DNA of 64,000 bases from Agromyces laixinhei (lineage in GTDB: Bacteria > Actinomycetota > Actinomycetes > Actinomycetales > Microbacteriaceae), in contig NZ_CP040872.1 in the NCBI RefSeq assembly GCF_006337065.1, positions 2,418,001 through 2,482,000 of the forward strand, given 5' to 3'. Each line of letters begins with the position of its first letter. Within the stretch, counting starts at the first letter, position 1. Under the pieces are notes generated by a model, which had not been told where the DNA came from, did no database searches, and saw nothing but the letters and a program-made list of their open reading frames with translations. The position numbers were made by a program, and so were the translations under genes. Shown here one piece after another: positions 3,825 through 64,000 of the stretch.

Positions 3825-4982
3825 TCAACTCGCGTAGGCGCTGTTCTCGTGCACGTAGTCGTGCGTGAGATCGTTCGTGAAGATGGTGGCGGATGCCTCG
3901 CCGGCATGCAGCTCGATGAGCACGTGCGTCGCTCGCGGCGTGAGGTCGACGTCGTCGCGCGGCGCGTCGGGCCGCCCGGCATGACACACCCGAACCCCGT
4001 TCATCGAGACGTCGACGAGATACGGATCGAAGGGCGCGCTCGTGGTGCCGATCGCGGCGAGCACCCGGCCCCAGTTGGGGTCGTTGCCGAAGATCGCTGC
4101 TTTGAAGAGGTTGTTGCGGGCGACCGAGCGACCGACCTCGACCGCGTCGTCTTCGGTCACGGCGCCGACGACCTCGATCGCGATGTCGTGGCTCGCGCCC
4201 TCGGCGTCGGCCTGCAGTTGCATGGCGAGACTCCGGCAGGCCTCGGTGAGCGCCGCGGCGAACTCGGTGGGTTCGGGCGCCACGCCCGACGCGCCCGACG
4301 CGAGCAACGTCACCTGGTCGTTCGTCGACATGCAACCGTCGGAATCGAGCCGGTCGAAGGTCACGCGGGTCGCGGCGCGAAGCGCGGAGTCGAGGTCAGC
4401 AGCCGACAGTGCGGCGTCCGTCGTCACGACCACCAGCATCGTCGCGAGACCGGGTGCCAGCATTCCGGCACCCTTCGCCATACCGCCGATCGACCAGCCG
4501 TCGCCCACGACGACGACCTGCTTCGGCGTGGTGTCGGTCGTCATGATGGCGCGAGCCGCATCGTCGCCGCCACCGTCTTCGCTCGACAGGCGAGCGATCG
4601 CCGACACGACCCCCTCTTCGAGCACCTCGCCGTCGAGTTGATCGCCGATGAGCCCCGTCGAGCAGACGAGCACATCACCGGCGGCGACGCCGAGTCCCGA
4701 CGCCGCTGCCTCGGCTGTGCGGTGCGTCACCTGGAACCCCTCGGGCCCGGTGAAGCAGTTGGCCCCGCCGGAGTTCAGCACGATCGCCGAGACGATGCCG
4801 TCGGCCGCGACCTGCCTCGACCAGATGATCGGGTTCGCCTGAGCGCGATTCGAGGTGAAGACCGCCGCCGCCTGCTGTGCGGGCCCTCGATTCACGACGA
4901 GTGCGAGATCGAGCGCTCCCGTTCGCTTGATGCCGGCCGCGATTCCCGCCGCCTCGAATCCCTGTGGGTGGGTGATGGTCAC
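3825..4982 (-). CDS. argJ: Bifunctional glutamate N-acetyltransferase / amino-acid acetyltransferase
   Basis: Transfers acetyl from N-acetylornithine back to glutamate (cyclic arginine pathway) and usually also makes N-acetylglutamate from acetyl-CoA. The 385-residue precursor has the self-cleavage site in the segment [14 protein letters not shown], where the chain is cut before the nucleophilic Thr. The start is a GTG overlapping the argC stop (GTGA); the peptide VTITHPQGF after it matches family N-termini. With argJ present, the operon needs no argE. Confidence 0.95.
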
Positions 4983-6273: not shown

Positions 6274-6316
6274 ACACGTGACTGTGGGGAACGGCCGCCA
6301 TGTTCACCGCAAACAC

Positions 6317-6390
6317 GAGGGGATCGGCAGTTCCGAGGGCGGTTCGGGGTTTGAGTATCCTCGGAATCGCAGATCTCCTCGGAATCGCGC
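6317..6390. repeat. Hairpin repeat family, copy A
   Basis: Left arm 6317-6338 and right arm 6359-6380 pair over 22 positions with about 18 matches, followed by another partial CTCGGAATCGC unit. Same sequence family and orientation as copies B (61578) and C (62646). It lies 53 bases beyond the pheT stop, so it may also end pheST transcription. Confidence 0.85.
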
Positions 6391-59388: not shown

Positions 59389-61392
59389 TCATTCCTGGTG
59401 GTGTGCGGTCGGATGCGCGGCCGCGCGCGCTGTGCGTGGCGATGCGGCGTCGGCGGCATCGGTGGTACCGGATGCCTCGTGATGGGGCTCGACGCGGGCG
59501 ACGGCCTGATCGCGTGCGACCTGCTGCCCCACCGCGATCGAGAGTCGCACGACGCCGGCAATCGCCGCGGTGACGCGATGTTCCATCTTCATCGCCTCGA
59601 TCGCGACGACGGCGTCGCCCGGTGCGACGGTGTCGCCGTCGGCGACGAGCACGGCGGTGACGGTGCCGGGCATCGGCGCGCGGAGTTCCGGGTCGGCAAG
59701 GCCGCCGCGTTCGATCATCGCGAGGCGGGCGTCGAGAGCGGCCCGGCGATCGGCGGCCGGAATCCGCCAGATGCCGCTGGGCGTATGCAGCCAGAGCGCG
59801 CCGTCGGCATCGGTTGCGACGGCGTCGGGGCCGTCGGCATCGGTCGCATCGGCGTCGGCGCCGTCGGCGGTAGTCGCGCCGAGTCGCCAGTCACGAGCGG
59901 TCAGCCACGCGTGGGCACCGTCGGCGCGCGCCGCGACGATCGCTTCGGCGGAGCGCACGGTCGCAGCGGCTGCGAGCACCTCGGGCGGAGCGGCATCCGC
60001 CTCGGGTTCCGGCATGCGGTCGATGAGACCGGTGTCGAGGTCGCCGCGCTGCACGGCGGGCTCGGCGAGGAGGCGCCGGAGGAACCCGAGGTTCGTGTCG
60101 ATGCCGAGCACGACGGTGTCGGCGAGCGCAGCGTCCAGGCGCGAGATCGCCTCTGCGCGGTCGTCGCCGTACGCGATGACCTTCGCGAGCATGGGGTCGT
60201 AGTCGGCGGTGATCTGCTGCCTCGAACGGATGCCGCCGTCGACTCGCACTCCGGCCCCCGCCGGCTCCCGCCAGACGAGCAGTTCGCCGGTCGACGGCAG
60301 GAAACCGCGCTCTGGGCTCTCGGCGTAGAGGCGCGCCTCGATCGCATGCCCGGCGAGGTGCACGTCGCCCTGACGCAGCGAGAGCGGCTGGCCCGCAGCG
60401 ACTCGCAGCTGCTGCTCGACGAGGTCGACGCCGGTGACGAGCTCGGTGACGGGGTGCTCGACCTGCAGCCGGGTGTTCATCTCGATGAAGAAGAAGTCGC
60501 CCGGCGCGGCATCCGACACCAGGAACTCGACGGTGCCCGCGCCGCGGTAGTCCACGCTTCGAGCGGCATCGCATGCCGCTTGCCCGATGCGGGCGCGGGT
60601 CGCGGCATCGAGCAGGGGCGACGGCGCCTCTTCGATGACCTTCTGATGGCGGCGCTGCAGTGAGCACTCGCGCTCGCCCAAGTGGATGACGTCGCCGAAG
60701 TCGTCGGCGAGCACCTGCACCTCGATGTGGCGCGGTCGTTCGATGAGTCGTTCGAGCAGCAGCGTGTCGTCGCCGAATGCGGCGCGGGCGACGCGCCGTG
60801 CCGCGGGAATCGCCGCAGCGAGTTCCCTCGCGTCGCGGGCGATCTGCATGCCCTTGCCGCCGCCGCCGGCACTCGGCTTGACGAGCAGCGGATACCCCAC
60901 CGATTCGCCGGCAGCGGCGAGTGCGGTGTCGTCGAGTGAGGGATCGGCGATGCCGGGAACCGTCGGCACACCGGATGCCTCGACATGCAGCTTCGCGCGG
61001 ATCTTGTCGCCCATGATCTCGAGCGCCTGGACGCCCGGTCCGATGAAGACGATGCCGGCCGTGCGGCAGGCTTCGGCGAAGCCCGCATGTTCGGAGAGGA
61101 AGCCGTAGCCGGGGTGAATGGCCTCTGCACCGCTCTCGCGCGCTGCGGCGATGATGCGGGCCGGGTCGAGGTAACTCTCCGCGGCTGCTGCGGGACCGAT
61201 GCGCACGCTGTCATCGGCGAGGCGCACGTGCGGCGCGTCGGCGTCGGCGTCGGAGAAGACGGCGATCGAGCGGATGCCGAGGCGCCGGAGCGTGCGGATC
61301 ACGCGCACCGCGATCTCGCCGCGGTTCGCGACGAGCACCCGGTCGAACGGGCGCGTCGGCCGTGTCGCATCGACGGCGTCGACCATGCCCAT
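59389..61392 (-). CDS. accA1: Acyl-CoA carboxylase alpha subunit (biotin carboxylase + BCCP)
   Basis: Biotin carboxylase and biotin carrier fused, 667 residues; with AccD1 it probably carboxylates methylcrotonyl-CoA. N-terminal [19 protein letters not shown]-grasp [12 protein letters not shown], catalytic [16 protein letters not shown], and the C-terminal biotin site EAMKMEH. Between the domains is an Ala/Asp/Thr repeat ([13 protein letters not shown]). ATG at 61392 follows AGGGAGG. Two TetR-like palindromes lie 36-77 bases upstream. Confidence 0.93.
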
Positions 61393-61469: not shown

Positions 61470-61494
61470 TGAAATCGCAAGCAGGCGGCGAGGG

Positions 61495-61577
61495 TCAGCC
61501 TGCTCGCGGTGCGAGGGCAGCGGCGATGCGCTCGACGCCGAACTCGAATGCCCGATCGACGTCGTCACAGCTGAAGC
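61495..61577 (-). pseudogene. 3' remnant resembling the end of a TetR gene
   Basis: About 25 codons in front of a TGA at 61495 encode DDVDRAFEFGVERIAAALAP, which resembles the last helix of TetR-family C-terminal domains (FEFG followed by an amphipathic helix). The frame runs straight into hairpin repeat B and no helix-turn-helix part exists on the other side. Position next to TetR-like operators supports a truncated repressor. The match is short, so this is an inference. Confidence 0.5.
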
Positions 61578-61670
61578 GAGGAGATCGGCGATTCCGAGGG
61601 CGGGCAAGGGCTCGGTCACCCTCGGAATCGCAGATCCCCTCTGAATCGCAGATCCCCTCGGAATCGCGCG
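61578..61670. repeat. Hairpin repeat family, copy B
   Basis: Arms 61578-61600 and 61619-61641 pair over 23 positions with two mismatches around an 18-base loop; the right arm continues as tandem CTCGGAATCGCAGATCCC units (18 bp). It ends 3 bases beyond the DUF559 stop and directly abuts the TetR-like remnant. Confidence 0.9.
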
Positions 61671-61673
61671 GGC

Positions 61674-62570
61674 TCAGCGTGTGCGGTGCAGCCCTTGCGC
61701 CACGGCACGCATGATGAGGTCCTGAACCGTGTGCCAGCGTTCGACGATCTGCCAGTAGCCGATTCGGATCACGTGATACCCGAGCAGCGTCAGCTGCGCA
61801 TCGTGCTCGATGTCGGACTCGCGCTGCTCGCCGACGTGATGGCCGCCGTCGATCTGCAGCACCAGGCGCTCCCCGATGAGGAGGTCCACCCGATGCCCGG
61901 CGAGCCAGACCTGCGGCACGAGCGGGATCTTCATCCATGCCAGTCGCGGCACCACGAACGACTCCAGGCCGGAATCGGAGAACGGCAGTGCGGCAGCGAG
62001 AATCTTCCGCGAGACCGCGGGGAGCGGCAACCGTTCCATCGCCTCCCGGTCGACGATCGCCTGTCGCAGCGCTGACTCCCACACCGCGAAGGCCGCCTCG
62101 AACGGCTGACACGCCGCCACGAGAACGAGCACGTTCTCGATCGGGTCGACGAGGGCGTCAGGATGCCGCGGTACGAGCGGCTTCGCCCAGTGCACGGTCG
62201 CGCCTCTCGGCGTGGCGCATCCGGAGTGCGCTGGCGCGGCGACGTGGGAACGATCCTCTCGGAACACCCAGAGCCCGAGACGCCGGGCCTGGGTGACGCA
62301 TGAGACCACCACCCCAGCACGTGCGGCCGCGACGAGGTACGCATCGGCGCCGGGAGCCGCCACCCACCCCTTACGCACCCGGAACACGGCTCCGCCCGCG
62401 AGGGCCCGCTCGATGCGATGCCGGCTGTACCCGGCCCGGATCAGGCTTCGAGTGCGCGTGACCCCGCCGTCCTCCTGCACATACGCGGCAACGGACGGGG
62501 TCGCGGGCTCGCAGTCACCCGCATCGACACTGTTCACACCCCAACCCTGCGCGAGTACTCGATCCGGCAT
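61674..62570 (-). CDS. AbiEi-like winged-helix / DUF559 nuclease-fold protein
   Basis: About 298 residues. Near 25-75 is a winged-helix part like AbiEi antitoxins (GGVTRTRSLIRAGYSRHRIE, FRVRKGWVAAP). The C-terminal 80 residues are DUF559, a Vsr/PD-(D/E)XK-like fold, with RVDLLIGERLVLQIDGGHH and RESDIEHDAQLTLLGYHVIRI; the acidic residues expected for metal binding are present. Start is uncertain: ATG at 62570, or GTG at 62537, which has the better AGGG. It lies inside a catabolic operon and between two direct hairpin repeats, so it is probably acquired. Cellular role unknown; nuclease activity is inferred. Confidence 0.85.
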   Translation of the reverse strand: MPDRVLAQGWGVNSVDAGDCEPATPSVAAYVQEDGGVTRTRSLIRAGYSRHRIERALAGGAVFRVRKGWVAAPGADAYLVAAARAGVVVSCVTQARRLGLWVFREDRSHVAAPAHSGCATPRGATVHWAKPLVPRHPDALVDPIENVLVLVAACQPFEAAFAVWESALRQAIVDREAMERLPLPAVSRKILAAALPFSDSGLESFVVPRLAWMKIPLVPQVWLAGHRVDLLIGERLVLQIDGGHHVGEQRESDIEHDAQLTLLGYHVIRIGYWQIVERWHTVQDLIMRAVAQGLHRTR

Positions 62571-62645
62571 CGTCGTCGAGGCACATCCGAGGACGGTTCG
62601 ACTCGTCGGGAGGATGTGGAGGAGGGATGTCGCCGTGCAGGAATC

Positions 62646-62742
62646 GAGGAGACCTGCGATGCCGAGGGCGGCCGCCAGCTCGATCACCCTCGGAATCGCA
62701 GATCCCCTCGGAATCGCAGATCCCCTCGGAATCGCCGATCCC
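62646..62742. repeat. Hairpin repeat family, copy C
   Basis: Arms 62646-62668 and 62687-62709 pair with about 20 of 23 matches, and three tandem 18-bp units extend to 62742. Same orientation as B, on the other side of the DUF559 gene, about 75 bases before its start. Confidence 0.9.
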
Positions 62743-62749
62743 CACGACG

Positions 62750-62796: not shown

Positions 62797-64000
62797 CTAC
62801 ATGCGGAACAACCCGAACGCCGGCTCGGGCAGCGGCGTGCGGCTCGCAAGTTCGAGCGCGAGAGCGAGCACGGTGCGCGTGTCCTCAGGCGCGATGATGC
62901 CGTCGTCCCAGAGCCGCGCCGTCGAGTGGTATGGGCTGCCCTGATCGTCGTATTGGGCTCGGATCGGATCCCTGAACTCCTGCTCCGCGGCATCCGACCA
63001 TTCTTCGCCCTTCAGCGCGAGCTGGTCGCGCTTGACGGTCGAGAGCACGGATGCCGCCTGCTCGCCCCCCATCACCGAGATGCGCGCGTTCGGCCACATC
63101 CAGAGGAACCGCGGCGAGTACGCCCGGCCGCACATCGAATAGTTGCCTGCGCCGAACGAACCGCCGACGACGACCGTGAACTTCGGCACCCGGGTCGTCG
63201 CGACGGCCGTGACCATCTTCGCTCCGTGCTTGGCGATGCCGCCCGCCTCGGCGTCGCGGCCGACCATGAAGCCCGAGATGTTCTGCAGGAAGACGAGCGG
63301 GATGCCGCGCTGGTCGCAGAGCTCGATGAAGTGCGCGCCCTTCATGGCCGACTCGGAGAAGAGCACTCCGTTGTTCGCGACGATGCCGACGGGGTGGCCG
63401 TCGATATGGGCGAAGCCCGTCACGAGCGTGTCGCCGTACTCGCGCTTGAACTCGGCGAACTCACTGCCGTCGACGAGCCTCGCGATGACCTCGTGCACGT
63501 CGTAGGGCTGCTGCACATCGACCGGCACTGCGGCGGTGAGCGTCGACGGGTCGACTGCCGGCGGTCGCGGCTCGCGCACCGCCCACGCCCTCGGAGCGGG
63601 TTCGGGCAGGGTCGCGACCATGTCGCGCACGAGCTCGAGCGCATGCTCGTCGTCTTCGGCGAGGTGGTCGGTGACGCCCGAGACCCGGGAGTGCAGTTCG
63701 CCGCCGCCGAGCTCCTCCGGCGTCACGACCTCGCCGATCGCCGCCTTCACGAGCGGCGGCCCGCCGAGGAAGATCGTGCCCTGGCCCCGCACGATGACGG
63801 TCTCGTCGCTCATCGCCGGCACGTAGGCGCCGCCCGCTGTGCAGGAGCCGAGCACGGCGGCGAGCTGAGGGATGCGCATCGACGAGAGCTGCGCCTGGTT
63901 GAAGAAGATGCGGCCGAAGTGCTCGCGATCGGGGAAGACCTCGTCTTGCAGGGGCAGGAATGCACCGCCCGAGTCCACGAGGTAGACGCAGGGCAGCCGA
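62797..64000 (-). CDS. accD1: Acyl-CoA carboxylase beta subunit, partial (AccD1-like)
   Basis: Carboxyltransferase subunit, about 400 C-terminal residues; the N-terminus is beyond the window. [50 protein letters not shown] and [31 protein letters not shown] are hallmarks of methylcrotonyl-CoA carboxylase beta chains rather than propionyl-CoA ones. With accA1, the dehydrogenase, MaoC and CitE it forms the leucine-degradation set. Its stop is followed by the repeat/DUF559 insertion. Confidence 0.93.

Follow-up and report, generated by a model that had tools for sequence, protein, structure and literature searches.

A described association of a single-copy gene with its own repeats is that of RAYT genes and REPINs. 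In the published account RAYTs belong to the Y1 tyrosine transposases and are relatives of IS200/IS605; the gene occurs in single copy, largely tracks the species tree and adjoins its own class of palindromic repeats, while REPINs are predicted hairpins dispersed between genes, distinct gene–repeat pairs being of distinct type (PMC3116915). We have found a repeat-flanked gene for a different enzyme in a stretch of 64 000 nt of the Agromyces laixinhei genome (contig NZ_CP040872.1, positions 2 418 001 to 2 482 000; the whole stretch is called the window below). The gene encodes a protein with an AbiEi-like part and a Vsr-like nuclease domain (DUF559) and lies between two repeats, B and C.

The repeats are gene-specific and the arrangement holds across the bacterial class, which goes beyond an initial annotation of the window. 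By a slight balance of the evidence we read the gene as a single-copy nuclease with its own paired recognition sites, a REPIN/RAYT-like unit on an unrelated enzyme.

Repeats flanking the nuclease gene

In the source genome the nuclease gene is the sole gene between B and C and is sited between accA1 and accD1, all on the minus strand. The initial annotation had placed one gene between repeats of the same orientation, and the comparison bears this out: B (61573–61667) and C (62641–62735) are 88% identical over 95 nt in equal orientation. With at most three mismatches, the 20-mer CCCTCGGAATCGCAGATCCC has nine matches in the window where 0.01 are expected; two are in a third repeat, copy A (6320 and 6358), three in B and four in C. 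Every repeat copy in the window forms a dyad of about 70 nt, to which B and C add 18-bp units.

The same arrangement was looked for in a first set of 80 loci from named genomes, mostly Microbacterium. Enough flank was available at 78, five of which are Agromyces loci also found in the search for relatives of the window protein. The 330 nt upstream of each gene were matched, in either orientation, with the 250 nt downstream, the controls being 4326 window pairs with the same spacing from the same loci. The flanks scored above the 99th percentile of these controls at 61 of the 78 loci, and above all controls at 35, so that the repeats, which might have occurred at random relative to DUF559 genes, are not random.

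A class-wide set of 40 loci was picked before the flanks were viewed: 38 came from the listed class-wide matches (open frames of 294–389 aa) and the remaining two from the search for relatives; three of the 40 are the source genome's other genes of the family. Against 1514 mismatched pairings, 28 of these loci passed the 99th percentile. The flanks are alike within one gene and unlike between genes, and, of 118 genomes of the class, 84 contain relatives of the family.

Architecture of the repeats

A clear shared repeat was recognized in 72 of 105 genes. A self-match of at least 9 of 10 bases occurs at a lag of 18 in 26 of the 72 repeats and at a lag of 19 in nine; any other lag from 9 to 44 is seen in at most three repeats, and shuffled copies give at most two. 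The sequence of the repeat thus varies from gene to gene and the spacing of its half-sites is constant at 18–19 bp. From the stop codon to the start of the downstream copy the median distance is 16 nt (n = 59).

The initial annotation had called the repeats hairpins. The sites could pair, but the pair counts show no selection for pairing: among 27 aligned copies of the type found in genome G017, 86.6% of cells are paired versus 87.6% in shuffles, with no compensatory excess, and the flank pairs of 53 genes hold 26 compensatory versus 185 one-sided changes. Because compensatory changes are not in excess and one-sided changes dominate, double-stranded half-sites are favoured over selected hairpins. 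An exception on pairing is the gene of G010, which has perfect but differing palindromes on its two sides.

Copies away from the gene

Copies of a gene's own repeat type were found away from the gene in five of eight genomes tested (the source genome G000, G017, G018, G061 and G187). Three gene-less copies exist in the source genome: copy A in the window, one at about 4063–4131 of stretch L012, downstream of ilvC (gene name by eye), and one at about 3823–3890 of L013. A 17-mer of the window repeat, with at most one mismatch, has 12 matches in its own genome, nine in G018 and zero to two in each of 58 other relatives; the reversed pattern, used as a control, has zero. One pattern match in the source genome (G000 2168316) was dropped as a chance match on reading by eye. 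For copy A no BLAST match was listed at its argC–pheT junction in 22 other genomes of the genus. The argC–pheT spacer is too variable in most relatives to offer a clean empty site; it is about 90–100 nt shorter in G003 and G012, as judged from match coordinates.

The type of G017 has 29 matches in that genome versus zero or one in 15 other genomes, the reversed pattern giving none. Read out, they make up 25 elements at 13 places and four at the gene; one of the 25 (L293:257) has no clear left half. We also observed four dyads of this type in a row at 170-bp spacing (L289, G017:C1:1586400-1589200), and further pairs elsewhere spaced 116–417 bp, resembling the clusters described for REP elements.

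In G187, from another family of bacteria, three of eight matches are at the gene and five at four sites away from it; at three of these four the stretch read out contains both arms. Elsewhere this type has one 2-mismatch match each in G004 and G290 and none in 13 others, with one match of the reversed control in G187. G018 has six matches away from the gene, of which three are dyads; the others (125774, 1831653 and 1599487) were dropped by eye as chance matches. G061 has two flanking copies and three 3-mismatch matches, two of them dyads and one (1202503) likewise dropped as a chance match. Solo copies retain the long dyad architecture. REPINs number in the hundreds, and the solo copies here look fewer.

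The encoded protein

The window protein scores 25.5 bits against Pfam DUF559 (PF04480), above the cut-off of 20.6, and matches MTES_1575 with a score below the family cut-off. Profile scans found no NCBIfam family at 1e-3 and no PHROGs family at 0.1, and a sequence search of the PDB gave 3hrl as the sole sensible lead (E 0.088). The initial annotation had proposed an antitoxin-like part joined to a Vsr-type nuclease, and the structure comparison agrees: in the AlphaFold2 model (predicted local distance difference test, pLDDT, 89.7) the two halves match 6y8q (AbiEi) and 3r3p (catalytic domain of the homing endonuclease I-Bth0305I), with a Vsr-like nuclease fold.

In an 18-member alignment (A1) all members match both DUF559 and REase_MTES_1575 (PF18741) at E 0.01 or better, and 11 match Pfam AbiEi_4. 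Among the Pfam matches of the 18 members at E 0.01 there is no transposase, only DUF559, MTES_1575, AbiEi and one DUF5741 match. The descriptions of DUF559 and MTES_1575 that were seen give no link to flanking repeats.

Residues E200, D226, D238 and D250 are invariant across 75 intact aligned proteins. Mean conservation is 0.43 in the presumed recognition helix versus 0.77 in the nuclease, the helix being the most variable of the segments compared. Repeat similarity drops as protein identity drops. Its rho is 0.22 with the middle part and 0.15 with the nuclease; for the whole winged-helix part the partial correlation after allowing for the nuclease is 0.16, and none of 500 permutations reached as high a value, but the middle part does equally well or better, and we therefore claim no determinant. 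The recognition helix was also considered as the specificity determinant and set aside, because similarity of the repeats is not tied to it.

Full, solo and empty sites

A query from Microbacterium oleivorans (L161:2800-6200), which carries the cassette in full state, has a match somewhere in all 119 of 119 genomes. In G089 (94% identical) the site is empty: query positions 996 and 2120 sit 7 nt apart, and the gene and both repeats are missing. The join is at the same two positions in G129 and G180. Such an empty site may be the ancestral condition or may result from precise loss. G127 (91–93%) is in a solo state, its flanks overlapping over one repeat and its outer flanks matching the full state of L161 on both sides; this state is explained because recombination between direct flanking copies would leave one. 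In G179 (stretch L255) the place of the M. oleivorans cassette is taken by a solo dyad of another type, with GCGAGAAACCA half-sites.

In Agromyces we examined 37 genomes (the window's and 36 others) and found accA1 and accD1 in one fetched stretch in 33. Left out were G026, where accD1 is outside the stretch, and G014, G022 and G027, where the best accA1 match is no better than other biotin carboxylases. The two genes are directly adjacent in 14 genomes, about 1.6 kb apart in 11 and 4–5 kb apart in five, and the nuclease gene stands between them in three. The block does split accD1 from accA1 in the window, as had been noted initially; direct adjacency, noted there for the comparable M. tuberculosis order, is found in only 14 of the 33 genomes of the genus.

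The other two occupied genomes are those of Agromyces sp. Root81 (G018) and Agromyces italicus (G029), with proteins 80% and 78% identical to the window's; both genes have dyads on both sides, altered in sequence. A tree of accA1 and accD1 from the 33 genomes puts all three occupied genomes in a single six-member clade (support 0.98), a placement compatible with a single gain followed by two losses or with more than one gain. A comparison by eye gave no exact borders for the cassette at the Agromyces locus: the short spacers of gene-less relatives do not align.

The position of the gene is stable. In a comparison of 86 genes, each of the 66 pairs with at least 70% identity has flanking DNA in common, and on this ground we rejected the idea that the cassette often jumps as a whole. 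Of the repeat-bounded cassette proposed initially, presence or absence at a fixed site thus stands (three of the 33 Agromyces genomes; full, solo and empty states of a single orthologous site in Microbacterium), and frequent movement of the whole does not. The nuclease gene is best read as mostly vertically inherited and single copy.

The locus and its neighbours

The features of the locus are collected in Table 1.

Table 1. Features of the window at the nuclease gene, its repeats and its neighbours
Feature	Position	Strand	Remarks
Nuclease gene	61674..62561	-	295 aa from assumed start, start codon uncertain; AbiEi-like part + DUF559/Vsr-like nuclease domain
Repeat B	61573..61667	.	Downstream of gene, 6 nt past stop codon; dyad + extra 18-bp units
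Repeat C	62641..62743	.	Upstream of gene; dyad + extra 18-bp units
Repeat copy A, solo	6316..6389	.	Between argC and pheT (names by eye)
TetR-family gene tail	61494..61572	-	Ends beside repeat B; rest of gene missing
accA1-type biotin carboxylase	59389..61392	-	Left neighbour
accD1-type carboxyltransferase	62797..63999	-	Right neighbour, runs past window end

In relatives the TetR gene has a neighbour for a metallo-beta-lactamase-fold protein, which is missing at the window locus. Both genes were recognized by eye in the 11 genomes with the 1.6-kb spacer, whose two ends were read, and beside the cassette in G018 by hidden Markov model (HMM). In the window only the TetR tail is left of the pair (L075:5033-6463 in relatives); the break lies near repeat B and may point to breakage at the repeat. 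G029 is likewise without both genes at accA1–accD1. A second, more distant gene of the family (37–39% identical) lies about 11–13 kb from accA1 in several species of the genus (for example G018:C4:58274, G029:C12:68045, G019:C1:240410 and G021:C4:64427).

Between the upstream dyad and the gene we observed a motif, TCCTCC(A/C)CA(G), at about 62608–62628 of the window (minus strand). In the upstream stretches of 112 related genes TCCACA is present in 61 and TCCTCC in 78, whereas in control windows the two have frequencies of about 2% and 6%; with more tightly defined variants of the motif the count is 42 of 80. We take it to resemble a degenerate DnaA box, or an anti-Shine-Dalgarno stretch.

Proposed mechanism and alternatives

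Each site is best seen as a double-stranded dyad of about 70–90 bp, in which two direct half-sites at a distance of 18–19 bp are followed, after a short spacer, by their inverted counterparts. The gene has one such site on its upstream side and another shortly after the stop codon. The AbiEi-like part would bind the dyads. AbiEi is known to regulate itself, and binding at the upstream dyad would keep the gene's own expression low, perhaps as self-regulation. The homing-endonuclease-like domain would nick or cut at the dyads; repair after cutting would copy the site elsewhere, giving solo copies, and would also preserve the likeness of the two flanking copies or remove the gene that they enclose.

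Several observations count against this. At 17 of the 78 loci of the first set the flanks do not exceed the 99th percentile of controls; 12 of the 40 class-wide loci fail and none beats the highest mismatched pairing (score 138); and in a first, cruder test, in which the partners included close relatives, eight of 32 loci beat every mismatched partner. In G060, G064 and G065 copies of their own type were found nowhere but at the gene or close to it. Variation in the presumed recognition helix is not matched by repeat similarity (residues 37–58; rho 0.07), and a target-site duplication was not recognized at the empty site. What we saw is the anatomy, the distribution and the comparative states; binding, cutting and movement were not observed and we only infer them. 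The solo copies might also be mobilized by a separate transposase, a RAYT for instance.

The most serious competitor, though an unlikely one, is that the protein acts chiefly as a regulator that binds DNA: its operator would be the upstream dyad, the downstream one would insulate or terminate, the solo copies would be other binding sites and the nuclease would be secondary. Relatives of AbiEi are annotated as transcriptional regulators, which the AbiEi_4 matches in 11 of the 18 aligned members and the fold call to mind, and the sites look like double-stranded dyads, given the lack of a compensatory excess. Yet regulation alone leaves unexplained a near-identical site behind the stop codon; the acidic nuclease residues are invariant in all 75 intact proteins, and the solo copies keep the long architecture, copy A being one that did not turn up at this junction in any of 22 relatives. 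Distinctly less probable is that the repeats are passive, homologous recombination deleting or exchanging the gene between them and gene conversion keeping the copies alike. The solo state of G127, with the outer flanks of the full state on both sides, is what such recombination predicts, but the class-wide occurrence of repeats at this gene family, in loci whose own control windows lack them, would be unexplained, as would the constant 18–19 bp spacing and the dispersed copies.

That the cassette is a defence or addiction module, as the initial annotation had suggested, appears very improbable. The AbiEi-like N-terminal part and the nuclease domain would suit it, but the cassette holds no toxin partner gene: the one AbiEii toxin match found in the source genome (G000:C1:3190866-3191516) is about 710 kb from the gene, PADLOC returned only weak AbiEi matches for the window protein, and the site is empty in related genomes. 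Least of all do we expect a conventional homing endonuclease gene of the free-standing kind, inserted at one fixed target. As a rule such genes split the target that is theirs, whereas here the sites flank the gene and also stand alone elsewhere. A nuclease with its own paired sites stays our preferred reading. Its extension, an actinobacterial REPIN-like world in which a large family of single-copy AbiEi-nucleases has private dyads bracketing the genes, with spreading possible and the active site fixed, we put forward tentatively, at somewhat short of an even chance.

Comparison with known systems

DUF559 genes are common in actinobacteria, and the family libraries used assign them no role. 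Since each gene has a private, changing pair of sites, there is a predicted target for each protein, and binding and cutting are testable from sequence. If the nuclease spreads its sites, unrelated enzymes would have given rise to REP-like elements, and natural pairs of protein and site would be at hand in large number for studying change in DNA recognition. A very incomplete search of the literature gave no paper whose title concerns DUF559 with palindromic repeats, and any claim to novelty is accordingly weak.

With I-Bth0305I (PDB 3r3p) only the nuclease domain is common, and here the gene is flanked by sites, not set into one. The fold of the AbiEi antitoxin of type IV AbiE (PDB 6y8q) is shared as well, but in our protein a nuclease domain is fused to it, no toxin partner is present and, unlike for AbiEi, there are sites on both sides of the gene; because no toxin gene is nearby, this is not a type IV toxin–antitoxin pair.

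The closest likeness is to REPINs and RAYTs as described in PMC3116915, and it lies in the stable position of the gene together with the dispersal of its sites in some genomes. As there, a single-copy gene that largely follows descent is flanked by its own class of repeats (61 of 78 and 28 of 40 loci here), and gene–repeat pairs differ in type. Dispersal of the repeats was seen in five of the eight genomes tested and not in G060, G064 and G065. The sites here could pair but give no sign of selection for pairing, and unlike a RAYT, the enzyme joins an AbiEi-like part to a Vsr-like nuclease and has no Y1 (HUH) transposase. Because no transposase domain was found and the folds are others, the protein is not a RAYT, and the likeness is one between single-copy genes with repeats of their own.
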